A program made the translations under genes and the position numbers. 26,317 bases of DNA from a virus: positions 1-26,317 of the IMG/VR virus record IMGVR_UViG_3300025642_000025, one strand, 5' to 3'. Of this stretch, positions 8,940-25,193 are shown piece by piece. Positions within the stretch are counted from its first letter, which is position 1. Each line of letters begins with the position of its first letter. A model generated the notes under the pieces. It was not told where the DNA came from and did no database searches. It worked only from the letters and a program-made list of their open reading frames with translations.

Positions 8940-11594
8940 TTATCTGTATTTCTTTTGTTCGCGTGTTTTGTAGCGTTTCGACATTAAACGATAACGTGTT
9001 TCATCATAGGCGTGATCCTCTGCCTCGGTTGCCACATCTTCAATATTCCGTTTATCTCTTGGTAAAACCGGGACTGTTCGAATGAAATGCCTACAGTTGG
9101 AGAATATTAACAAGCCAGGTTTTTCCATTGGAATTTCTTGTGAATTCTTAAGGAATCGTCTTAGTTTTTCAAGTCCTTGTTTCCTGCTACCGGGTTTCTT
9201 GTTTGCCCGCGTCCAGTTAACTCCTTCTCTTCGCATATCGGCGGCAATACACATATTGTTTTCTTCATCATAGATAGATGAATCTGCGGGACCTCTCACG
9301 ACACCTCTATTACCGATAATCTTTTCAAATTCAATAGAAACTTCAATCCTTTTAATCTCCTGCGCGATTTCAGATGCGACCATTCTGCATCCTTCATTTT
9401 CTGTTCCATTCCATCCATAAAATTCATATATTCTAAAGATAGTTCCTCTCGGAAATGATTTTATTTTCCCATCTGCAAGAGTTATCTCAGTCCCATCACT
9501 TTCTGCCCACCATCCTACTGAGAATGGTCTTGCAGATCCCCAGTCAAAAGATCTGTCCACATACCATGAATGGGGTATCTCGAAAGGCTCGACAACATGC
9601 CGTACTTCATCCCAGATGTCGTCAAAGGCGCCGCCGGCCGTAATGTCCCAGCTTCCATCCCGCCACGCTTTCCGTTTATTGGGATCCTTAATTGAATCGA
9701 GTTTTTTGATATATTCAGGATCTGCTTTTAAGAGGACTTTGTTTTCGAGGATTGATCCGTGGATTCTAACGCGTTGTTCGCCTATATTGTTCGAAATGAT
9801 GGTACCAGGCGGGGCCGGGTCAACGAAATACCTCTTAACCCAGTTCATTCCTATTCCCCACGAATTCGTCGTAGATCGATATTTCCTTGGTACATCGGGA
9901 TTACTCGATCGGCAACATGATTTCATTGCTTCGTAGCATTTATCGTCTGGCCATCCTGTGAGTTCTTCCCATCCAATAAACGAATTACTATTGACAAGAA
10001 AAATACTTGAATTATCATTTTTGTCTTGCGTTACAGACTCCAGTTGTGTTATATAATGGTTTACGTCTTCAATTTCAAAATCAACCATTTTAACAAAAGG
10101 AGTTTCTGATGACTGAACAGAAAAATGATAGGACTTCAATGGAATATTTGTTTCAAAAGATTCATGGGTGTAAGGATGAGTATAAACGTTCTGAATGTCT
10201 TCGTAAGGGGTATGTCCAGATGAATTGTCCTGAGCATCCTTATTGTTGGTTGGGCGGTTGGATGTTTGAACATCGTTTTTTATTGGAAAAAAAGGTTGGG
10301 AGGTTCCTAAAACCTGAAGAGGAATGCCACCATTTAAACCATATTCGTTCTGACAATTGTTCTGAAAATTTAACATTCCTTGCTTCAAAATCTGAACATA
10401 TGCGAATGTATCATTCCAAGCAATTTGATCCAGCGTTAATCGAAACGGTAAGGGGGGCTGCGAAAAATTATGAAGTTTCCCGTGTTGATATTGCTGAAAG
10501 GATTGGGGTATCTGTCTCGACAATAAAGAATATTTGTCGGAATAATAACATGCTATGGATTGGATCAGACGAACATGAATTGAATGAACATGAAGTACAA
10601 GAAATGCTAAAGACTGACAAACCAAAGCAAGTTGCCGAATGTCTTGGTATTCATGTCCATACGTTGAGGCGGCGTTTTCCAAATCTTCTCCCAAGAAGGA
10701 AGCCTTCTGGTTATTTAGATCAATATAAGAAGAAAGTTTTGGCGCTTCGTGATAGAGGCCAACCGCTTCGTGCAATTGGGAAAGAATTTGATGTAACGAT
10801 GAAAACTGTATCCGATGCAATTGCGAGATGGAATCGTCCAGAGGATTATCTAAAATACGAAAAAAAGAATAATAGATTTCTCGATGAACACCAGAAAGAA
10901 ATTTATAAACTTCTTTTAATAGGGGTTTCACAGGTAAAGATTGCTTCAAAGTTTGAGACAAACAGGACAAGCCTATCCGTTGCCATCCGTAGGTGGTCAG
11001 CACAGGGTGCAGTACCCCCTGAAGTTGCTCGCCTATTAAATTCGAATAAGAATCGTATACAGAAAGTTTAATAGCGGGTTTTTCATAATGAAACGTTTTC
11101 GTTACTTTCTTGGGACCTTGCAACGTTTGGATTAAATCACCAACTTTTACATCCCTTGCTTGAATTTGCTTTCCATTTGCATATTTAATATAACCCTTAT
11201 GATATATGCTGTATTCATGCCCGTGATAATTCCAATAATCGTCAGGATTGTCCATGTGTCGCAAAAGAAGCTGCTCTTTTCCTGGGAATGTCCACACATA
11301 TTTGGATTCATTGTATTTAGCACCGGGAAAAATCTGATAGAACCATTTCTTCGTTCTTTGGATAATATCGTCTAATTGCTTATAAGTTCTCCTAAATAAG
11401 AGCCCGCGCCAGGCCCTGCCATATCCCTTGCCTACATCCTGGGCGAAATCCATTAGGATAGAATCTGTCTTTTGACTTCCACGAGTCCCATCATATAGTA
11501 CCTCATAAATGGGACACGCAAGATAAAGTCGTTGGCTTCCCTTTTGCGGTTGCCAGATTACATTGATTTCTTGATTTTCATTCTTCGAGTTCAT
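8940..11594 (-). CDS. terL: large terminase subunit interrupted by an intein
   Basis: 884 aa precursor. Terminase N-part: a Walker A-like loop GTRGSQKT at 36-43, with Gln where a Gly before the Lys is usual, then FRRTYKQLDDIIQR at 68-80. The sequence GHEY (125-128) is then broken by an intein (129-537) and resumes as SFIGWEELTGW (538-548). The spliced product reads GHEYSFIGWEEL, the Walker B region with its catalytic acids. The C-terminal RNase H-like nuclease shows RSFDWGSARPF (681-690), GPADSSIYDEE (768-778) and DHAYDETRY (860-868). Splicing should give a protein of 475 aa, a normal length for a packaging ATPase-nuclease. It overlaps the small terminase by 17 bases. Confidence 0.93.
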   Translation of the reverse strand: MNSKNENQEINVIWQPQKGSQRLYLACPIYEVLYDGTRGSQKTDSILMDFAQDVGKGYGRAWRGLLFRRTYKQLDDIIQRTKKWFYQIFPGAKYNESKYVWTFPGKEQLLLRHMDNPDDYWNYHGHEYSIYHKGYIKYANGKQIQARDVKVGDLIQTLQGPKKVTKTFHYEKPAIKLSVYDSYSNLIGEQLQGVLHPVLTTYGWQRIGLSCLSQTLKQSLPVKPLLKEVYKFLSGVHREIYYSFFRILDNPLDDSISQLHRIQFSSLHQILSQLHEAVGLYHEAPKLSSYIDLNNQKASFLGEDLENAASTYGHEYQDIRQLALVCQSLAFLVLHVHSIHVRLIQSIACYYSDKYSLLSRQIPQSFQQYQHGKLHNFSQPPLPFRLTLDQIAWNDTFAYVQILKQGMLNFQNNCQNEYGLNGGIPLQVLGTSQPFFPIKNDVQTSNRPTNNKDAQDNSSGHTPYEDIQNVYTHPYTHESFETNIPLKSYHFSVQSSETPFVKMVDFEIEDVNHYITQLESVTQDKNDNSSIFLVNSNSFIGWEELTGWPDDKCYEAMKSCCRSSNPDVPRKYRSTTNSWGIGMNWVKRYFVDPAPPGTIISNNIGEQRVRIHGSILENKVLLKADPEYIKKLDSIKDPNKRKAWRDGSWDITAGGAFDDIWDEVRHVVEPFEIPHSWYVDRSFDWGSARPFSVGWWAESDGTEITLADGKIKSFPRGTIFRIYEFYGWNGTENEGCRMVASEIAQEIKRIEVSIEFEKIIGNRGVVRGPADSSIYDEENNMCIAADMRREGVNWTRANKKPGSRKQGLEKLRRFLKNSQEIPMEKPGLLIFSNCRHFIRTVPVLPRDKRNIEDVATEAEDHAYDETRYRLMSKRYKTREQKKYR
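9984..11210 (-). mobile_element. intein in TerL with the endonuclease region on the opposite strand
   Basis: 409 codons, TerL residues 129-537. Block A: Ser1 (S129) then DVKVGDLIQT at 148-157. Block B: GVLHPVLTTYGWQRIG at 193-208 with the conserved His at 196; the usual Thr of TxxH is Gly193. Block F: VDFEIEDVNHYIT at 504-516. Block G: IFLVNSN at 531-537 followed by Ser538; the usual penultimate His is Ser536. About 15 extra residues sit between the F and G blocks. The span of about 280 residues between B and F, where a LAGLIDADG or HNH domain would normally be in frame, has no recognised domain and is the antisense of the HNH gene at 10109-11071. Junctions give a clean extein, so active splicing is likely but unproven. 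Confidence 0.88.
10109..11071 (+). CDS. HNH homing endonuclease encoded antisense inside the TerL intein
   Basis: 320 aa, opposite to the terminase gene, with its own AAAAGGAG (10095-10102) six bases before ATG 10109. Residues 51-102 are an HNH nuclease: MFEHRFLLEKKVGRFLKPEE, then HHLNHIRSDNCSENL (74-88), with the catalytic His pair and Asn. Four helix-turn-helix-like units follow, near 121-145, 160-190, 205-241 and 258-296 (for example VDIAERIGVSVSTIKNI and LRAIGKEFDVTMKTVSDAI), which would give long-site DNA recognition. It lies wholly between intein blocks A and F, and its C-terminal 30-odd codons overlap Hint block B codons on the other strand. It probably cuts intein-less terL genes and so drives intein spread; that role is inferred. 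Confidence 0.88.
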   Translation: MTEQKNDRTSMEYLFQKIHGCKDEYKRSECLRKGYVQMNCPEHPYCWLGGWMFEHRFLLEKKVGRFLKPEEECHHLNHIRSDNCSENLTFLASKSEHMRMYHSKQFDPALIETVRGAAKNYEVSRVDIAERIGVSVSTIKNICRNNNMLWIGSDEHELNEHEVQEMLKTDKPKQVAECLGIHVHTLRRRFPNLLPRRKPSGYLDQYKKKVLALRDRGQPLRAIGKEFDVTMKTVSDAIARWNRPEDYLKYEKKNNRFLDEHQKEIYKLLLIGVSQVKIASKFETNRTSLSVAIRRWSAQGAVPPEVARLLNSNKNRIQKV

Positions 11595-13564: not shown

Positions 13565-14719
13565 ATGGCAATATCCAATACTCTTACAGCAATTTTACCT
13601 AAAATTTTGGCTCGTGGGCTCCTGCATCTTCGTTCCAGAGTGCTCATGACGCGTCTCGTCAACCTTGACTATTCGATGGAAGCCAAGAAAAAAGGCGAAA
13701 CCATTGATGTTCCGGTAGCTGCTTCCATTACCAGCGGTGCCGTTGCGCCTGCTGCATATCCCGCAGCCCCCACTAATCTAACCACAGCGACTGTCCAGAT
13801 TTCCCTTGATAACTGGCAGAAGGCCAGTTTCGGTCTGACTGACAAGGAACTTGGACAGATCAATGCACAGGATGATTTCATTACACTCGAAATGACCGCA
13901 GCCTTCGAGGCTTTAGCCGTTGATATCAATGATAGTATCTTTGCAGAATATGTCGGTGTTTATGGCTACACCGGTACCGCCGATACTACGCCGTTTGGCG
14001 CAGGCGTTGAAGTCACTTCAGCTACACTCGCCCGTAAGATCCTCAACCAGCAAAAATGCCCGAGAGACAATAGACGTGGTGTTTTGGATTTCGATGCTGA
14101 GGCAAATGCTTTAGCCCTGGCCCAATTCTCCGATGCTGAGAAGGTTGGTGGTAGTGATGTTAAGATCTCCGGTGAAATCGGTCGAAAGTTTGGCGTTGAT
14201 TGGAATGCGGACGATGGTGTTCCGACTCATACGGCTGGAACGGCTTCAGGGGCAACCACGAGTAGTGCTGGGTATGCGGTTGGTGTAACTACAATGACTC
14301 TTGGTTCTAATGGAACTGGAGCCCTTGTTGAAGGAGATGTTTTTACAATTGCCGGCGACGACCAGACTTACGTAATCTCGACTGGCGATGACGACGTGAG
14401 TAATGGTGGAACCATTGTCTTTGCTCCTGCTTTGAAGGTCGAGATTACCACGGCTGAAACAGCAATTACTGTTAAAGCTGATCATGTCTCTAACCTCGTT
14501 TTTCATCGCGATGCATTTGCCCTGGCTATGCGAGCTCCAGACGATGCACTCAAGGAAGTCTTCACTCCCGACAACAGCTATACCATGCAGGACCCGGTTT
14601 CCGGTCTCGTGATGAGGCTCGAAGTGATCCGCATGTATAAGCAGACCATGTGGGAGCTTGACGTTCTGTGGGGTGCTAAGCTGATTAGGGCGGAATACGC
14701 GACCCGAATCGCCGGATAA
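13565..14719 (+). CDS. major capsid (coat) protein, P22 gp5-like
   Basis: 384 aa behind GGAGGTG. It has the marks of the P22-type coat family with HK97 fold: an N-arm with ILARGLLHLRSRVL, the segment GETIDVPVAASITSGA, ISLDNWQKASFGLTDKEL (79-96) and FDAEANALALAQFSDAEKVGGSDVKISGEIGRKFG (176-210). The stretch 224-306, rich in Gly/Thr with TIAGDDQTYVIST, looks like a beta-barrel insertion domain comparable with the P22 I-domain. The family assignment comes from the pattern, not from a search. It follows the scaffold by 81 bases and is the most highly expressed type of gene in such operons. Confidence 0.9.
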   Translation: MAISNTLTAILPKILARGLLHLRSRVLMTRLVNLDYSMEAKKKGETIDVPVAASITSGAVAPAAYPAAPTNLTTATVQISLDNWQKASFGLTDKELGQINAQDDFITLEMTAAFEALAVDINDSIFAEYVGVYGYTGTADTTPFGAGVEVTSATLARKILNQQKCPRDNRRGVLDFDAEANALALAQFSDAEKVGGSDVKISGEIGRKFGVDWNADDGVPTHTAGTASGATTSSAGYAVGVTTMTLGSNGTGALVEGDVFTIAGDDQTYVISTGDDDVSNGGTIVFAPALKVEITTAETAITVKADHVSNLVFHRDAFALAMRAPDDALKEVFTPDNSYTMQDPVSGLVMRLEVIRMYKQTMWELDVLWGAKLIRAEYATRIAG

Positions 14720-14805: not shown

Positions 14806-15870
14806 ATGACTAAAAGAAAACAAATTTTTTCTGCAATTGGAATTTTCGCGGTCCTTGGGGCTCTTGCCCTGTTCACATTGCCTTTCAATGTATTCTCTAC
14901 GACAACCACACCGGCCCTGTATGGGACTAACGTTCCGACTGCCGATTCAACCGCGAATGATGTTTCCGCTGATGTGATCGGAAGTAAGACTGATGCAGCT
15001 GCAGCTGGAGCAGTGTCTGCAACTGAGTCTATCATGGCTTACGCTAAGCAGATTGTGGGTGAGCAGATTGTCAACGACACGAATATCGATGCAATTCTCG
15101 TTGACACTGCAACTACTATTCCAGCTACGATTGCTACGGCACAGTCTGACCTTGATATCCTCACAGGTGCAACAGGTGCAAACCTTTTAACCGCTACGCA
15201 AGCCTCTATAGATGCAATTGAAGTTGATACTGAGACCACCATTCCGGCGACTATTACCACAGCCCAGAATGATTTAGATATCTTGACTGGTGCAACTGGG
15301 GCAAATTTACTTACTGCCACGCAGGCATCCATAGATGCAATCGAGGTTGACACTGAAACTACGTTGCCTGCTACCCTGGCTATTATTTCTGCGGCCGCCG
15401 CCCCGTCGTATACCCATCCAAATTATCTGGCTGTCACGGCAGATATGACAAGTGAAACCTGGAATACCGTTGCTGCTCATGAGATTGCAGTTGTGACCGG
15501 TGCTGTTCGGATGCAGATAATGATTGAAACTGTAGCCACAATTGTTACAGTTTCAACGAGCGGAACTTTGGCTCTTGGCGTTGCGGGCAATACTGCCGCT
15601 GTCATAGCTGCCACAGCTTTGGATACTGCTATTACCGGAGATGTCTGGTCAGGAGTTTATGGTGCGGTTGCGACTACTGAAATTGGGGTTGCCGATGCTC
15701 ATTCTTCTTTGACTTCAGCGATCTTTGACCTTGTAGTCGTTAATGGTATTGATGTTGGATATACCATTGCGGCTCAAGCTGGCACGACTGGTTCGCTTAA
15801 ATTTCATATTTACTGGACCGCCCTTGATTCAACCGGAGCAGTTACGGCAGGCGCTGGCGGAGCATTTTAA
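14806..15870 (+). CDS. repeat-containing head fibre or decoration protein with an N-terminal hydrophobic segment
   Basis: 354 aa, ATG 14806 behind GGAGGTG. A basic MTKRKQ is followed by a hydrophobic segment (residues 8-26, FSAIGIFAVLGALALFTL) resembling a signal or membrane anchor, which is odd for a gene next to the coat. Residues 100-181 are two 41-residue repeats, nearly identical at protein level, with a partial third (182-195, DTETTLPATLAI). Their Asn/Thr/Ala/Ile composition and regular spacing suggest a rod-like trimeric or beta-helical stalk. The C-terminal 150 residues are beta-rich. Position between coat and terminator suggests a head-decorating fibre, but an envelope or secreted protein cannot be excluded. 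Confidence 0.65.
   Translation: MTKRKQIFSAIGIFAVLGALALFTLPFNVFSTTTTPALYGTNVPTADSTANDVSADVIGSKTDAAAAGAVSATESIMAYAKQIVGEQIVNDTNIDAILVDTATTIPATIATAQSDLDILTGATGANLLTATQASIDAIEVDTETTIPATITTAQNDLDILTGATGANLLTATQASIDAIEVDTETTLPATLAIISAAAAPSYTHPNYLAVTADMTSETWNTVAAHEIAVVTGAVRMQIMIETVATIVTVSTSGTLALGVAGNTAAVIAATALDTAITGDVWSGVYGAVATTEIGVADAHSSLTSAIFDLVVVNGIDVGYTIAAQAGTTGSLKFHIYWTALDSTGAVTAGAGGAF
15103..15348 (+). repeat. two 41-aa tandem repeats within the fibre-like gene
   Basis: Two consecutive 123-base units encode 41-residue repeats beginning DTxTTIPATI and ending ASIDAIEV. They differ at only three residues (Ala/Glu, Ala/Thr, Ser/Asn), yet by my count about 24 of the 38 conserved codons differ synonymously. 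A 14-residue partial third copy follows. Confidence 0.85.
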
Positions 15871-16781: not shown

Positions 16782-17207
16782 ATGTTGCTCAAGATTGAAA
16801 TTGACGTAGAAGACGCCATTGAGATGTTGGATAGTGTCGCAGCGGTTTTGACATCTGACGGATTTGCTGATGCAGCCGGCGGATTTGCTGCGGATCGCAT
16901 TATACAAAGAACTCTTTCTGGAAAAGATATTAATGATAATTCCTTTGAAGCGTACAGTGCCGCATATGCAAGAAAGAAAGGTGGTATAGTAAATCTATCT
17001 GCATCGGGTGAAATGCTCGGATCTATTGATTTCCAGTCTGGTTCTTCGACCGAAACGACGATTACGTGTGATTCGGATATCGCAGGATATCATGAAGATG
17101 GAACTTCCGATATGCCACAGCGGCAATTTATGGGGCTTTCAGATAAAGATATAGGCGACATGATGGAGGAGATTTTCACAGGACCTTTAACGGAGCTCGT
17201 AGGTTAA
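16782..17207 (+). CDS. phage virion morphogenesis / head-tail joining protein
   Basis: 141 aa. The C-terminal part YHEDGTSDMPQRQFMGLSDKD matches the pattern of head-tail joining proteins of the phage morphogenesis (gpS/HK97 gp10-like) group, where 'Y..G...MP.R.F.G' is typical. The middle has AAYARKKGGIVNLSASGEMLGSIDF, typical of the same group. It starts one base after the stop of the tiny basic gene. It probably completes the neck between the head and tail. Confidence 0.75.
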   Translation: MLLKIEIDVEDAIEMLDSVAAVLTSDGFADAAGGFAADRIIQRTLSGKDINDNSFEAYSAAYARKKGGIVNLSASGEMLGSIDFQSGSSTETTITCDSDIAGYHEDGTSDMPQRQFMGLSDKDIGDMMEEIFTGPLTELVG

Positions 17208-18021: not shown

Positions 18022-18483
18022 GTGGCAGCAAACAGCATTCGTGAACAGATTTTAGAACAAGTTGAAATTGTTCTTAATAATATCGATGCACTCAGCTCAG
18101 TAAAAAGAAAAGTGGTTGCTTCAGTTTCAGAATTAAAGGAGATACCTTCACCGCTTTTTCCAGTAACTTGTATGACAGCAGGTCTTCCGGTTCCGGTAGG
18201 AGGAAGGTATGTCACTCTCAGAGAATCTGGGCAAACGAACAACGTGAGGTCTGTCTTATCGATAAGCCTACGCACGTATGGTCTCGACAAACTAAATCCG
18301 GACACTGCTATATCGAGCTTATTTGAGGATATTTGGGACGCTCTCTACGCAGATCCAACAGTAGATGATCTCGCTGAAAGCGTTACCGTGAAACCACAGA
18401 GACAAACATTATTTTTCGAACCCTTTTATCGCTTCGACATGGTTTATGACGTCGAATACATACACGATACGGATGGTATTTAA
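18022..18483 (+). CDS. tail completion / terminator-like protein
   Basis: 153 aa with GTG start 18022 behind GAGGT. Helical beginning (REQILEQVEIVLNNIDAL) followed by beta strands and a C-terminal VYDVEYIHD; this order and position just before the tail tube fit tail-completion proteins that cap the tube beneath the head. It overlaps the next gene by one base (TAATG). Family assignment is by position and pattern. Confidence 0.6.
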   Translation: MAANSIREQILEQVEIVLNNIDALSSVKRKVVASVSELKEIPSPLFPVTCMTAGLPVPVGGRYVTLRESGQTNNVRSVLSISLRTYGLDKLNPDTAISSLFEDIWDALYADPTVDDLAESVTVKPQRQTLFFEPFYRFDMVYDVEYIHDTDGI

Positions 18484-19499: not shown

Positions 19500-19712
19500 A
19501 TGGCGGATCTTTCAACGGAAATTGAACTTATATTCATGGAAGCTCCTGAAAAAGATATAGATGATCCGGATTATAAAGAGTCGTTGCCGAGGGTCATGGT
19601 GGAGATATCAGGCTTAGAACCTATCATTCAGCCGCTCATGCTTAGGATTTTTCAATTAGTCGAAGCTAAATCTGCAGAACGTGGAGCAGGATATTATTTT
19701 TCCGTAAGATGA
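19500..19712 (+). CDS. small acidic protein A1 (first copy of pair)
   Basis: 70 aa. It reads MADLSTEIELIFMEAPEK... with later IIQPLMLRIFQLVEA and GAGYYFSV. The same order of residues recurs in the gene at 19988-20203, so the two are paralogues. It precedes a second small acidic gene, also repeated. Function unknown; position suggests tail assembly. Confidence 0.65.
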   Translation: MADLSTEIELIFMEAPEKDIDDPDYKESLPRVMVEISGLEPIIQPLMLRIFQLVEAKSAERGAGYYFSVR

Positions 19713-19719
19713 TAATCAT

Positions 19720-19971
19720 ATGTCTGAAGATTTTACAATTTCGTTTCAGGGTACTGATGCAGTAGACAGCATGACATGGGACATAAAGGACGGATTCGAA
19801 AATCTTGACAATGTTGTCACAGACGAAGCAGAAGAAGATCGATGGGTTCCAGAAATAATTGCTACATCGGATGAAGTGGAAGCAGCAATAGAAGAGCTTT
19901 TATATGATGTGCTTTTAGAAATTCAAATACAAAGCACAGGAACCGAATCAGATTTCGAAGACAATATATAA
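19720..19971 (+). CDS. small acidic protein B1 (first copy of pair)
   Basis: 83 aa, strongly acidic. Starts MSEDFTISFQGTDAV and later has EIIATSDEVEAAIEELLYDVL. The gene at 20207-20452 repeats the same features (MSEDLTITFQGTDEV; EIIITSDQLEPEVEEIMWDVL). No clear ribosome-binding site is seen, so it is probably coupled to A1, which ends 7 bases upstream. Function unknown. Confidence 0.65.
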   Translation: MSEDFTISFQGTDAVDSMTWDIKDGFENLDNVVTDEAEEDRWVPEIIATSDEVEAAIEELLYDVLLEIQIQSTGTESDFEDNI

Positions 19972-19987
19972 AGTATTGTGACTATTA

Positions 19988-20203
19988 ATGGCAGAATTCT
20001 CAAAAGATGTTGAATTTACGTTTATTGAGCCTCCTAAACAGATAGTTGTTGACTCAGAGGATGAAAGCGATCTGCCGACCATAAAAATTGATGTATCGAA
20101 ATCAGATTTAGTCATACAAGCCATCTTGCTTCGCATCTTGCCGTTGATATCAATCGAATCACAAGAATATGGAGCAGAATATGTTTTTGAGGTTAAAAAG
20201 TAA
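19988..20203 (+). CDS. small acidic protein A2 (second copy of pair)
   Basis: 71 aa paralogue of the gene at 19500: MAEFSKDVEFTFIEPPKQ, then VIQAILLRILPLISIES and GAEYVFEV align in order. Roughly a third of residues match by eye. No strong ribosome-binding site is seen. Confidence 0.65.
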   Translation: MAEFSKDVEFTFIEPPKQIVVDSEDESDLPTIKIDVSKSDLVIQAILLRILPLISIESQEYGAEYVFEVKK

Positions 20204-20206
20204 ATA

Positions 20207-20452
20207 ATGTCAGAGGATCTTACAATTACATTTCAAGGGACTGACGAAGTATCTTCTAAGATTACGGAGATTTATGATAAAATCAATGAAGCGCCGGATG
20301 AAGATGCTGTCGATAAAGAAGACACCGCTCTCGAAATCATTATAACCTCAGATCAATTAGAACCGGAGGTAGAAGAAATAATGTGGGATGTCCTCGGGAA
20401 GATCAAAACAAGAGCCGAAGAAGCCGAAGCGGAATTCCTTTCGAATTTATAG
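20207..20452 (+). CDS. small acidic protein B2 (second copy of pair)
   Basis: 81 aa paralogue of the gene at 19720, with the same beginning MSEDxTIxFQGTD and the same C-terminal TSD..E..xEE...DVL helix. A GAGGT lies about 12 bases upstream of its ATG and the upstream gene stops three bases before. Function unknown. Confidence 0.65.
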   Translation: MSEDLTITFQGTDEVSSKITEIYDKINEAPDEDAVDKEDTALEIIITSDQLEPEVEEIMWDVLGKIKTRAEEAEAEFLSNL

Positions 20453-20467
20453 GAGAAATAAAAAACA

Positions 20468-20818
20468 ATGATTGCAATCATTTCAAAAACCACAGCGGAT
20501 GCTGATATGCCGGTTATTTTAGAATTAATCGAACCATCTCTTTACTCCGGTAATCGACGAGTTTCAATTAGTAAAACACTCGATCAAGGTGCTTCATTCT
20601 CAGATATGGGATTTTCTGTTGCAGATCGTCGATATCAAATTAAAGCAATTGTCTCTGAAACGGTCGCAGCGAGCTTGAAGACTTTAAATGAAAACAATAC
20701 GGAATTAACGCTTGCGTTGTGGGAAGGGCTTTTCAAGGTAACGCCGATGAGCTTAAAGATAAAGGGAACTGGCATCGCAGTTTTTACGTTTGCGATTAAA
20801 TCACAAATTTCAGCATAA
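20468..20818 (+). CDS. hypothetical tail-region protein, 116 aa
   Basis: Starts at ATG 20468 behind AGGAGAAAT. A beta-rich small protein with SDMGFSVADRRYQIKAIV and TLALWEGLFKVTPMSLKIKGTGIAVFTF, consistent with a compact beta-sandwich such as tail-associated proteins. Not recognised. Confidence 0.55.
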   Translation: MIAIISKTTADADMPVILELIEPSLYSGNRRVSISKTLDQGASFSDMGFSVADRRYQIKAIVSETVAASLKTLNENNTELTLALWEGLFKVTPMSLKIKGTGIAVFTFAIKSQISA

Positions 20819-20836: not shown

Positions 20837-21274
20837 ATGGCAAGAGGAGACGTCACCATCTTCGAAGAAGCATTGGCAAAAATGTTATCGGGCAATTGGG
20901 CCAGCACGGATCATTTTTACTGTGCAGTGTGTGACAATACGGCTACCCCTGCAGCTGGTACGGTCACACCGGTATTGGGTGATTTTACAGAGGTAGGTGC
21001 GGCTGGGACGTATGTTGCAGGAGGGACAGACCTCGGAGCGTTGTCTGCTCTGGTATCTGAAGCCGCGGGAGTCATGACGTTTGATTCAGCAACAAATCCA
21101 ACCTGGGCGCAAGATGGCAACAGCGATGTCGATGCTTACTGGGGGATTGTCTACAATTACACCGATGCCGGAAAGGACTGTCTTTGCTTTGTGGATCTTG
21201 ACGGACCGGTGGATATGAGCGGTGGGGATTTGACAATTACCTGGAATGCGAGCGGAATTCTTACTATTTCGTAA
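20837..21274 (+). CDS. probable virion structural protein, 145 aa
   Basis: Starts at ATG 20837 behind GGGAGGT. Helical start (MARGDVTIFEEALAKMLSG) followed by a Gly/Ala/Thr/Asp-rich beta domain (TYVAGGTDLGALSALVSEAAG; WGIVYNYTDAGKDCLCFVDL) and a final strand GDLTITWNASGILTI. It resembles small phage proteins found just before fibre genes. Family not certain. Confidence 0.6.
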   Translation: MARGDVTIFEEALAKMLSGNWASTDHFYCAVCDNTATPAAGTVTPVLGDFTEVGAAGTYVAGGTDLGALSALVSEAAGVMTFDSATNPTWAQDGNSDVDAYWGIVYNYTDAGKDCLCFVDLDGPVDMSGGDLTITWNASGILTIS

Positions 21275-21286
21275 CGAGGTATCGTT

Positions 21287-24082
21287 TTGGCATGGCTGAG
21301 CGGTTGGGACAATAGAATAAAGCTCACCATTGACAAGGACGTGGTCGATACCGCAAATCAGACCAACTTCCCTGTTATGGTATCCCTGTCCGCAGCGTCA
21401 GGGATAGGTGATGTTGATGTTTCTTGTGTGTTTGATGAACTTACCGCTGATGCGAATCGGAAGAAGATAGCTGTCACTAGCGATGACGGAACTACAGAAT
21501 TATATGTAGAAATAGAACGGTGGGACGATGCCAATGAGAAGGCTTGGCTGCACGTCAAAGTGCCTACTGTGGCTTACGATGCAGATACCGAGCTCTATCT
21601 CTACTATGATGCCGATCATGCCGACAATGACACCTACGTTGGAGACATTGACAGTATACCCGGGGCTGCTGTTTGGGATAGTAATTTTAAAGCTGTTTGG
21701 CACATGAGGGATGCAACAACGTCAACAGTTAAAGACAGTACAGGAAACAATCACGACGGAACAAAGGTTGGGGCAAATGAACCAAACGAGGTGGATGGAA
21801 AAGTTGATAAGGCTCAGGAATTTAGCGGCGACGATCAGGGAGACTCAAATATAACGGTTACTGATCATGCCGACTTTGATCTTCAAGGCGACTTCACTAT
21901 CGAAGCGTTGGCGTATTGCGATGCGTTTGGAAATGCTGAAGATAATAATAACTATGTTTGCCGTATTGTAAATAAAGATGATAACCCAGGAGGACGATCT
22001 TGGCAGTATAATATCCGTGGTGAAGCTGACGGTGTGAATGTTGGGAAACAGCAATTCATTTACGATGTTCCAGCGAGCACTTTGGTTTATTCGTCTACAG
22101 CGATCAGTTTGACGACATGGACTTCTCTTGCCATGGTCTTTGATAATACCGCTGGTTCTTATACGTTCTACAAAGATGGTTCTGCGGACGGGACTGCAAG
22201 TACAGACATTACCCCAAACAATAATGGCGGAAATGTGACCATCGGTGGAGGAGAAGCTCCGAGTGTGTGGGTCCATGATTGGGATGGAAAACTTGATGAA
22301 GTCCGCATTTCTGAAACTGAGCGTTCCGCACCTTGGATAAAAGCCACATACCACAGTCTTTGGGATTCGCTTATTACGTTTGGGGCGGAGGAGCTTAATC
22401 TTGATATTGATGTTTCAGCGACCACCGCAACTCTGACGGTTACTCCGAATGCAGCGACAGTAATCGGAGCAACCGGCGTATATCCAAATACCATAGCTTT
22501 AACTATCACTCCAAATGCAGCAACCGTTGCCTTTGGAATACCGGTAGCTGCTACCTGTGCATCTCTAACCGTCACAGCAAATGCTGCAGATGCAGTTTTT
22601 ACGATACCAATTATTGCAACATCTGCGTCATTAACCATTACGCCAAATGCTGCAACCGTGAGGGTAGGTACGGTTGCAGTGTTCTATCCTGCGGTGAATG
22701 GAGACGATGGTTATTGGAATGACACTACTGGGTTTTTTTCTACTGGCGATGCTATTTATTTATGCAATTCGACATCGTTTCCGCGTAGTTGTTTTATAAG
22801 GTTTCCAAATATAACCATTCCAAACTACGCGACAATAATATCTACACATGTTACTCTTACATCATTCGGTTATGGTGATAATGAAACTGCAAATGCCAAT
22901 GTTTATTTTAATGATTCAGCGAATGCCGTAGCCCCAACAGATTTAACCACAGCCAATGCTTTATCCCTCACTAATAATGTAGCCGCTTGGAATGCATTAC
23001 CTGCATGGGTTGATGGCACACAATACGATACACCGAGCTTGGTCGATGAACTCCAAGAAGTCATCGAAAATCCGAGTTGGTCTCATGATAATGCAGTTAT
23101 GCTTATCATTAAAGACAACTCCAGCACAAATGATGCTTCCCGACCTGCTTCCACCGTAGACTTCGATGGCGGATCTGAAAAAGCAGAGCTGCACGTTGAG
23201 TATTCGCTTCCCGACCTTAATGTTGAAGCAATTACTGCAACATTAACGGCTACACCAAAAAACGCTACTATTAACATTGCGGCGGCAACCGCCACCCTAA
23301 CAATCACCCCAAATACTGCGGATGCCGTTTTTAATATACCAATTAATGCAGCATTAGCATCTCTATCAATCACACCGAATGCAGTGACCCTTAACACCGT
23401 AGTTGTAACTTCAGTAGCACCCTTAACCATCACCCCCAATGCCGCTACGAGAAGTTGGGATCTTGAAGTCTCAGCAACTCTAAATGAACTTACTATCGCC
23501 ACTTACGATGCTATTGTTTTTGATGGCGCGGAATGGGCAGCTTGGATTGCAGCAAATGAATCAAGAGCATCTAAATATTATTACTTTATATTGACAGGCG
23601 CAGCCGATTCATTAGAAGATGTAACCATTCCGATTTCTTCGTTTCAAGCTCGCAGAAACTATACCTCTCCAACATATTTAAGCGTCATTATTAAAGACCT
23701 CACATATGCTGATGCCATAAGCGCTAGATCGAATGGCGACATGCAGATTAAAATGGAATATGAGGTAAACGGCGTCGTTGAACAAAGCTCAATTATGATC
23801 GAGGTAGACCTTGAAGATATTAGTGTTAATGAGGGTGCAAGCAATGCTTCGATCGGCCTTGTCGGCCATAGGATAGAAGGTTATGCACCAAAGTCAATTC
23901 TCCTTGAAAACATTGTTTACGGCACGCTCAAAGATGGAAAATATCAGTACAGGTGCTCTATTCCGAATTTATACCTTTCACCAGGTGACACAGTTACTGC
24001 AGATGGAAACGAATTTACAGTTGATAAAATCTCATACATCGTTTCACCGAAATCACAAATGATGTACGTTAAGGAAGCATAG
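21287..24082 (+). CDS. large adhesion-type virion protein with DUF2341 and LamG domains
   Basis: 931 aa. TTG start 21287 lies six bases after GAGGT (21276-21280); no in-frame ATG is nearby. Residues 1-125 are DUF2341-like (MAWLSGWDNRIKLTID; DTELYLYYDADHADN). Residues about 130-355 are a LamG/concanavalin-like jelly roll (FKAVWHMRDATTSTVKDSTGN; WDGKLDEVRISETERS). Two blocks of short 'TLTITPNAAT' repeats (380-458 and 650-722) flank a domain at 462-638 resembling DNRLRE-type beta domains (AVFYPAVNGDDGYWND; ELQEVIENPSWSHDNAV). The last 200 residues are a unique beta-rich end. It probably binds host surface glycans; that is inference. Confidence 0.75.
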   Translation: MAWLSGWDNRIKLTIDKDVVDTANQTNFPVMVSLSAASGIGDVDVSCVFDELTADANRKKIAVTSDDGTTELYVEIERWDDANEKAWLHVKVPTVAYDADTELYLYYDADHADNDTYVGDIDSIPGAAVWDSNFKAVWHMRDATTSTVKDSTGNNHDGTKVGANEPNEVDGKVDKAQEFSGDDQGDSNITVTDHADFDLQGDFTIEALAYCDAFGNAEDNNNYVCRIVNKDDNPGGRSWQYNIRGEADGVNVGKQQFIYDVPASTLVYSSTAISLTTWTSLAMVFDNTAGSYTFYKDGSADGTASTDITPNNNGGNVTIGGGEAPSVWVHDWDGKLDEVRISETERSAPWIKATYHSLWDSLITFGAEELNLDIDVSATTATLTVTPNAATVIGATGVYPNTIALTITPNAATVAFGIPVAATCASLTVTANAADAVFTIPIIATSASLTITPNAATVRVGTVAVFYPAVNGDDGYWNDTTGFFSTGDAIYLCNSTSFPRSCFIRFPNITIPNYATIISTHVTLTSFGYGDNETANANVYFNDSANAVAPTDLTTANALSLTNNVAAWNALPAWVDGTQYDTPSLVDELQEVIENPSWSHDNAVMLIIKDNSSTNDASRPASTVDFDGGSEKAELHVEYSLPDLNVEAITATLTATPKNATINIAAATATLTITPNTADAVFNIPINAALASLSITPNAVTLNTVVVTSVAPLTITPNAATRSWDLEVSATLNELTIATYDAIVFDGAEWAAWIAANESRASKYYYFILTGAADSLEDVTIPISSFQARRNYTSPTYLSVIIKDLTYADAISARSNGDMQIKMEYEVNGVVEQSSIMIEVDLEDISVNEGASNASIGLVGHRIEGYAPKSILLENIVYGTLKDGKYQYRCSIPNLYLSPGDTVTADGNEFTVDKISYIVSPKSQMMYVKEA
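22412..22660 (+). repeat. first block of TLTITPNAAT repeats
   Basis: Four degenerate copies of a 'A-T-L-T-[IV]-T-P-N-A-A-T' unit, about 23 residues apart, in the 931-aa adhesion protein (residues 376-458). Confidence 0.7.
23234..23452 (+). repeat. second block of TLTITPNAAT repeats
   Basis: Four further copies of the same unit (ATLTATPKNAT, ATLTITPNTAD, ASLSITPNAV, APLTITPNAAT; residues 650-722) after the DNRLRE-like domain. The two blocks probably arose by duplication, with the domain inserted between. Confidence 0.7.
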
Positions 24083-24083
24083 G

Positions 24084-25193
24084 ATGAAAGGATTGATTAG
24101 TAAGGTTTTTTCAGAAGGTAGATACAACGTAGACTTAACAAAATATGCGGGCAGTAGCTCTGACCCATATAGGGGCGAAGATTCCATTGAAGACGAATTA
24201 GACCGCATTGATGATAAAATTGCTGATATTGATGAACAGATAGCAGCGGATAATGTCGAAGTCGATGAGATTGCAGATGATATAGAATTCTTAGAATCGA
24301 TTGTGAACAACATTACTGCTCAATTAAACTGGGCATGGATGCTTGCTTACGAACAAGCAAGGCTTAATGCAATGCCGGAAGGACCTGAACGGGACGATTT
24401 AGAAGCTGAAAAAGCTGCATTAGAAGAATGGATTGAACAAAATGATATAGTTGAAAAGCTTGCAGCCGTAAATGCTCAAATTGCAGGAATGCAAGATACC
24501 TTAGCAGAAATGGAGGAAACATTAGAAGGAATGGAAGAAGGACCAGAAAAAGACGCTTATACTTATGTGGTAGACGATTACGACAATGAAATAGATGGTT
24601 TAATGGATGATGGAGTCGACTTATATGAACCATCCGAGAGAATTGAAGAAATAGATGAAATATTAACTGAAGCAGAAGGAGAGGCAAGAGATGAAATAGA
24701 AGAAAGAATAGAATTCGATCAAGAACAATTAGACGGTTTCGAAACTGAATGGGTAGATCTTAAGAGCGATCTTGGATCAATGGACCTTGAAATCAATCTT
24801 GATGCTGATTTAGCTTTTATAAGAATAAGTATCAGAGCCGAACTTAATGTGCTGGTTAAAGAAAGAATAGAGCTATGGTCAGACATAGAGCTTCTCGAAT
24901 TAAAAAAAACTGCCCTTGAACTAAAGAAAGAGGCTCTCGAAGAACGATTAGAAGAAGAAATTGAGGTATTAATAAGGAATATTTGGTGCGCAGATTTAAC
25001 GATAGACCTTTCAGGAAACATTGGTATTTTAGCAACTGAAAGTGGCTACAACATTCAACCCGGTTACGAAGGAAACGCAGCTTACGATGCCGTCAGAGAT
25101 GATGTACCAAGCGATGATGCATACCGGTATGGAATAATAACCGCAATTGATTATGAATTAGACACCTGCACCGTTCAAGTGAGCACCGGATGA
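24084..25193 (+). CDS. coiled-coil virion protein, C-terminally shortened relative to its neighbour
   Basis: 369 aa, starting one base after the upstream stop. MKGLISKVFSEGRYNVDL is followed by a long, very acidic coiled-coil region (34-297; rich in Glu/Asp/Leu). A C-terminal module has IWCADLTIDLSGNIGILA (300-317), NIQPGYEGNAAYDAVRDD (323-340) and YRYGIITAIDYELDTCTV (348-365). The next gene carries the same module in the same order and continues much further; this one stops where the neighbour's later domain would begin. It is probably a partial duplicate with an expanded coiled coil. Function unknown, likely tail or baseplate. Confidence 0.65.
   Translation: MKGLISKVFSEGRYNVDLTKYAGSSSDPYRGEDSIEDELDRIDDKIADIDEQIAADNVEVDEIADDIEFLESIVNNITAQLNWAWMLAYEQARLNAMPEGPERDDLEAEKAALEEWIEQNDIVEKLAAVNAQIAGMQDTLAEMEETLEGMEEGPEKDAYTYVVDDYDNEIDGLMDDGVDLYEPSERIEEIDEILTEAEGEARDEIEERIEFDQEQLDGFETEWVDLKSDLGSMDLEINLDADLAFIRISIRAELNVLVKERIELWSDIELLELKKTALELKKEALEERLEEEIEVLIRNIWCADLTIDLSGNIGILATESGYNIQPGYEGNAAYDAVRDDVPSDDAYRYGIITAIDYELDTCTVQVSTG

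Follow-up and report, generated by a model that had tools for sequence, protein, structure and literature searches.

The window (the whole 26,317-nucleotide stretch of viral DNA analysed here) carries four short genes in tandem on the plus strand, directly behind the gene for the tail tube: A1 (19500..19712, 70 aa), B1 (19720..19971, 83 aa), A2 (19988..20203, 71 aa) and B2 (20207..20452, 81 aa). The initial annotation, made by reading the sequence without database searches, had described a tandemly duplicated acidic cassette of order A1-B1-A2-B2, and this description is borne out by both pairwise and profile comparison. The four open reading frames lie where it had placed them, and all four proteins are acidic (pI 4.1-4.3). 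A1 and A2 are 34% identical (score 130 against a shuffle maximum of 58, with 0 of 2000 shuffles reaching 130), and B1 and B2 are 40% identical (score 143 against a maximum of 70, again with 0 of 2000 reaching 143). Profile comparison, the analysis on which the annotation had staked the paralogy, links A1 with A2 (E 9e-14) and B1 with B2 (E 2e-17), at scores equalled by none of 60 column shuffles. The genes are closely packed: A1 begins 10 bases after the tail tube gene, the A-B gaps are 7 and 3 bases and the B1-A2 gap is 16 bases. These short intergenic spacings suggest one co-translated unit.

The surrounding genes, all on the plus strand, belong to a tail module. Upstream lie a tail completion or neck protein (16782..17207; phrog_26, tail completion or Neck1, E 3e-12), which is the expected partner of the N-terminal strand of a tape measure protein (TMP), and a tail terminator (18022..18483; phrog_4204, tail terminator, E 5e-4) that is 71% identical in the related contig L009. 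The 335-aa product of 18483..19490 matches phrog_30644 (unknown function, E 1e-78) and its homologue in Marinobacter phage PS3 (vB_MalS-PS3; 38%); gene order points to a tail tube role, and the gene served as our upstream synteny anchor. The downstream anchor is a 116-aa tail gene (20468..20818; tblastn to PS3 E 2.5e-7, L030 E 1.9e-8, L066 E 6.5e-9), whose homologue lies directly 3′ of the TMP gene in relatives. It is followed by a 145-aa tail-module protein (20837..21274; phrog_644 E 1.6e-8, 84% identical in L009), a 931-aa tail protein (21287..24082; DUF2341 E 4e-6, PS3 E 2e-15, L066 E 8e-37) whose C-terminal part resembles the corresponding gene of TMP-bearing relatives, and a tail-tip or hub-like protein that runs off the contig (25190..26317; PS3 E 3.6e-42, L066 E 4.6e-55). 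By its position this last protein may be the hub, and a possible partner of a TMP C-terminus. Together with 24084-25193 it makes up a second tandem pair in the tail module, with a common IWCADLT-DLSG...NIQPGY region; 24084-25193 also encodes a long acidic coiled coil, and L006 and L009 have one gene here, not two. In L006 and L007 an apparent HNH/AP2-like endonuclease gene, judged by eye (L006 10819-11478), separates the 144-aa gene from the next tail gene; it is absent in L009.

Relatives of the window were reached via the tail tube: its tube was aligned with those of phages PS3 and ctUtU524, and a search with this alignment returned 80 IMG/VR loci. Four of the 80 (L006, L007, L008 and L009) have tubes 67-71% identical to that of the window, and all four show tube-A1-B1-A2-B2 in full, with the 116-aa gene next in line on every contig that extends that far. 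L006 and L007 are near-identical. A fifth copy (L126), nearly identical to that of L008, comes from a contig in the bin of a Cloacimonadota MAG. The order, including the position after the tube gene, is thus kept in four other IMG/VR contigs and one MAG contig, and four lineages in all carry the cassette. Across these lineages the A and B proteins (67-83 aa) are 33-56% identical, open, of the same length and in the same order. Third codon positions vary more between lineages than first and second positions, most clearly in A2 and B2, as expected for expressed genes. The four types stay distinct across lineages, which places the duplications before the split of the lineages seen. In the tube tree, the five cassette-clade tubes (window, L006, L008, L009 and L126) lie together on one side of a branch supported at 100/100. 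The tree has no outgroup; that change ran from TMP to cassette is inferred from the fact that nearly all siphophages have a TMP. Other searches added little: tblastn of B2 against phage records, single-sequence scans of viral contigs and a B1/B2 pair search gave nothing new, and scans with a four-sequence B2 alignment and with an alignment of the 116-aa gene recovered known clade members alone.

What occupies the same slot in other relatives is informative. The other loci have tubes about 35-46% identical to that of the window, and where the contig is long enough the tube gene is followed by a chaperone gene (about 150-180 aa), sometimes a short open reading frame, a TMP gene and then a gene of 113-122 aa, which is the homologue of the window gene at 20468 (117 aa in the PS3-type order). 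The arrangement is therefore tube-[cassette]-116 aa in the cassette clade and tube-chaperone-TMP-117 aa in the relatives, with homologous flanks; the cassette lies between tail tube and tail-tip genes, as a TMP gene does, and its slot holds neither chaperone nor TMP. Complete TMPs of relatives, in 50 loci, measure 560-957 aa and fall into two classes (560-686 or 892-957 aa), and a few relatives' TMPs reach 1089 aa. The PS3 protein in this slot matches TIGR01760 (tape_meas_TP901, E 2e-40) and many PHROG TMP families (E 2e-54), and we hold firmly that the protein replaced by the cassette was a true TMP. The tail of the siphovirus PS3 measures about 100 nm (PMC8424206); the TP901-1 rule, applied to the phage's 911-aa TMP, gives about 114 nm. 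In one relative (L117 4450-7250), the last 52 TMP residues, the C-terminal anchor, form a separate open reading frame, which reflects a frameshift error or else a genuine separation of anchor and ruler.

The initial annotation knew no family for these genes. That statement holds for Pfam, NCBIfam and PHROG scans, which name none for A or B (the only PHROG match below 0.01 is of B2 to phrog_10562, unknown function, E 6e-4), but no longer for B, which appears to consist of two TMP ends. When the B profile was run against 6960 frames of relatives, the top 15 matches were all TMP C-termini (best iE 1.8e-9; iE 8.8e-11 for the B2 family). In the opposite direction, a TMP C-terminus profile against 2181 frames of cassette contigs ranked the four B2 first (iE 2e-11 to 4e-8), with B1 and A frames after them, and a TMP N-terminus profile ranked the four B2 first and one B1 fifth. 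A full-length TMP HMM of 914 positions matched B2 at 10-32 and 877-911, or about 8-38 and 874-914 at the widest, in the right order (sequence E 1.4e-6), and had no match to B2 between about positions 40 and 874. Profile-profile comparison agrees: B matches the TMP C-terminus at E 6e-10 (E 6e-11 for the B2 family) and the N-terminus at E 9e-5, each with 0 of 60 shuffles as good, and the B1 profile alone gives E 1.7e-4 and E 9.7e-4, respectively. B2 copies also score above all their shuffles against the TMP N-terminus. The C-terminal half of B thus corresponds to the extreme C-terminus of TMPs, the anchor for the tip hub, and its start resembles the strand-helix at their neck end, both as sequence similarity; the long helical ruler is missing, the whole proteins being 67-83 aa. 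As the matches fall only at both ends and in order, it is well supported that B1 and its paralogue B2 would each be a TMP with the middle removed and both ends joined. B2 is the clearest member, with a TMP-like N-terminal strand-helix joined to a C-terminal strand-helix anchor. An AF2 model of B2 (strand 4-8, helix 12-28, strand 43-47, helix 52-79), at modest confidence, agrees in outline with this picture of strand, helix, linker, strand and long helix. The AF2 models of B2 and A2 have pLDDT 64 and 72, and Foldseek returned no significant fold match for either.

The A proteins are more diverged. A and B profiles match each other at E 4.9e-5, aligned over most of both lengths, and A weakly matches the TMP C-terminus (E 0.003) and N-terminus (E 0.009), each above all 60 column shuffles. 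Single sequences vary: A1 scores 9.2 against the TMP C-terminus, above all 781 scored shuffles, and the A2 profile reaches E 0.006 (0 of 60 shuffles), but the window's A2 alone is not above its shuffles, and of eight A sequences four exceed all their own shuffles and four do not. A1 has an N-terminal strand motif (MADLSTEIELIF) and then a C-terminal strand plus helix. A2 is modelled with a strand at 31-35, a helix at 41-60 and a strand at 66-70 (mean pLDDT 72); it was modelled alone because in a fused A2-B2 read-through model, since dropped, the alignment put A sequences on the B half. Judging by these alignments A is probably homologous to B, a more diverged copy of one design, which makes A1 and A2 putative ruler-less TMP paralogues and the cassette unit, probably, four copies of that design.

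In the ruler model of tail length, the ends of a TMP anchor and the middle measures. A point of comparison is phage TP901-1: internal TMP deletions shorten its tail proportionally, 30-aa deletions at either end abolish tails, and tail length extrapolates to 0 nm at a TMP of 127 aa, taken as the two end domains (PMC5099701). The TP901-1 deletion mutants resemble the cassette proteins in keeping both ends and losing the middle, but the shortest tail measured in the laboratory was 65 nm, whereas the cassette proteins appear to lie past the 127-aa zero-length intercept. Phage 80alpha uses three copies of its TMP, as against four paralogues in the cassette. The strands at the N-termini of the 80alpha copies occupy non-equivalent places in a sheet that they build with the tail completion protein (PMC11661146), and the C-terminal helices are housed in Tal, the tip protein (PMC7048315). 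The gene transfer agent RcGTA offers a short TMP (Rcc01694), trimeric and likened to the P22 tail needle, in a short siphovirus-like tail of five discs (PMC7296036). The likeness to the cassette, judged by description, is a short TMP; Rcc01694 has about 216 residues with a 113-residue helix and one gene, as opposed to 67-83 aa and four genes. The closest counterpart is the TP901-1-type TMP (TIGR01760) of PS3 and its IMG/VR relatives, which shares the slot, the N-terminal strand-helix motif and the C-terminal anchor with the cassette. Both adjoin homologous tube, 117-aa, LamG-like and hub-like genes; they differ in that the PS3-type TMP is one gene of 911 aa (560-957 aa in relatives) and the cassette consists of four paralogues of 67-83 aa with no ruler and no chaperone gene.

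We think it probable that the four genes encode ruler-less TMPs, which would connect the neck straight to the tail tip in a siphovirus-derived virion with almost no tail. An ancestor would have lost the chaperone gene together with the 500-900 aa helical middle of its TMP, so that what remained was the N-terminal strand-helix, an acidic linker and, fused behind it, the strand-helix anchor of the C-terminus. A first duplication of this remainder would have given the A- and B-types, and a second one, of the A-B pair, the present four genes. If the parts lie as in 80alpha, the N-terminal strands would be partnered by the tail completion protein in the neck and the C-terminal helices would lodge in the tail-tip hub, so that A1, B1, A2 and B2 would form a small, probably heteromeric plug that bridges neck and tip and leaves hardly any tube, or none, between the two. 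That the places in the neck sheet are not equivalent could explain why there are several diverged copies. A tail-assembly chaperone's job is to cover a long TMP, and it would therefore be dispensable once there was none to cover. The suggestion of the initial annotation that the cassette products act together fits this scheme and is retained; formation of heteromers is plausible. Applied to 67-83 aa, the ruler rule predicts essentially no tail, and the short tail remains a prediction for a clade known from genes alone. The full tube gene is highly conserved, and some tube might still be built.

The position after the tube gene had led to the suggestion that A and B are tail-assembly chaperones, of the lambda G/GT type, which likewise lie in the slot after the tail tube. 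We consider this very improbable and reject a chaperone origin of the cassette: the relatives' chaperone profile matches 72 TMP-bearing loci and has no match in cassette contigs (best iE 1.9), the relatives' chaperone gene is absent from the cassette clade, this type of chaperone has no profile similarity to the cassette, B resembles TMP ends instead and no long TMP remains to coat. Nor was a chaperone-type programmed frameshift joining two products found. A2 and B2 share a frame with a TAA between them, and a -1 frameshift product is therefore impossible there; between A1 and B1, a stop in the B1 frame (19705-19707) lies just upstream of the A1 stop, so that the one way to join the two would be a +1 shift at the final codon of A1. 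Scarcely credible, in turn, is the idea that the genes are functionless, decaying remnants of a deleted TMP. They are duplicated, have no ruler region and have diverged more quickly than the tube, but they are open genes of the same length and order in four lineages at 33-56% identity, with the codon-position pattern described above and with orthologous types that persist across lineages.

Two other readings are unlikely but have more in their favour. An ordinary or unrecognisable long TMP might be encoded elsewhere, with A and B as descendants of the old one that now serve as accessory proteins of neck or tip. In favour of this, the records are linear fragments, and the 369-aa coiled-coil gene of the window (24084-25193) shows a weak, coiled-coil resemblance to the middle of the TMP (iE 0.027). 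Yet the coiled-coil part of that gene has no counterpart in L009 or L006 beyond a hub-like region. The L009 contig, a linear and possibly incomplete record of 59,398 bases with packaging, head, tail, fibre, primase, exonuclease, helicase and integrase-like genes, has no match to the PS3 TMP, phrog_991 or PF10145 in searches where positive controls did match, and most of its long open reading frames have other homologies or known places. No long TMP was found in the records examined; the case for its absence from L009 is strong but not absolute, because the window and the 59-kb contig are linear, with no completeness estimate. In the other reading, which we rate as similarly doubtful, the four proteins form a segmented tape, lying in series along the tube lumen and jointly setting a finite tail length. 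Four diverged copies in fixed order in every lineage, and a tube protein kept at 67-71% identity, are points in its favour. On the other hand, each B copy retains both terminal anchors and not link-to-link interfaces, the best-matching stretch is the C-terminal anchor and no long helix is left.

If ruler-less TMPs are the right reading, the lineage looks like a natural experiment in which the TMP middle was removed and length fell below the extrapolated zero-tail point, and in which loss of the ruler coincides with loss of the chaperone. The fuller claim, to which we give somewhat better than even chances, is that this is a natural zero-length tape measure: a siphovirus lineage with neither TMP ruler nor chaperone, near tail-less, with a heteromeric plug of four mini-TMPs. 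If true, it would be a long-tailed phage caught turning short-tailed, and cassette phages would allow the evolution of short tails from long ones via one deletion to be tested directly. Proteins of 70-80 aa would also isolate both TMP anchors for structural work, and a set of small unannotated phage genes can now be named. The literature covered, which did not extend to most subscription journals, was searched for tape measures that are missing, short or minimal, and no such proteins were found described in it.

Several features outside the tail module were observed as well. The major capsid protein (13565-14719) is of the P22 coat type (PF11651 E 1e-12), yet it accompanies a siphovirus-type tail module. 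The gene after it (14806-15870) encodes an N-terminal hydrophobic segment and repeats of about 36 aa (IDAI-VDTETTIPATI); the L009 counterpart has 591 aa, and repeat number may therefore vary. The large terminase gene (8940-11594, minus strand) contains an intein-like insertion that follows NYHGHEY and ends VNSN before SFIGWEELT. Antisense to it (10109-11071, plus strand) runs a long open reading frame with HNH and helix-turn-helix domains, homing-endonuclease-like in character. This arrangement is conserved in both frames in the L009 contig (19035-22718), where the plus-strand terminase carries another insertion, about 330 aa long and located after residue 582, which may be a second intein.
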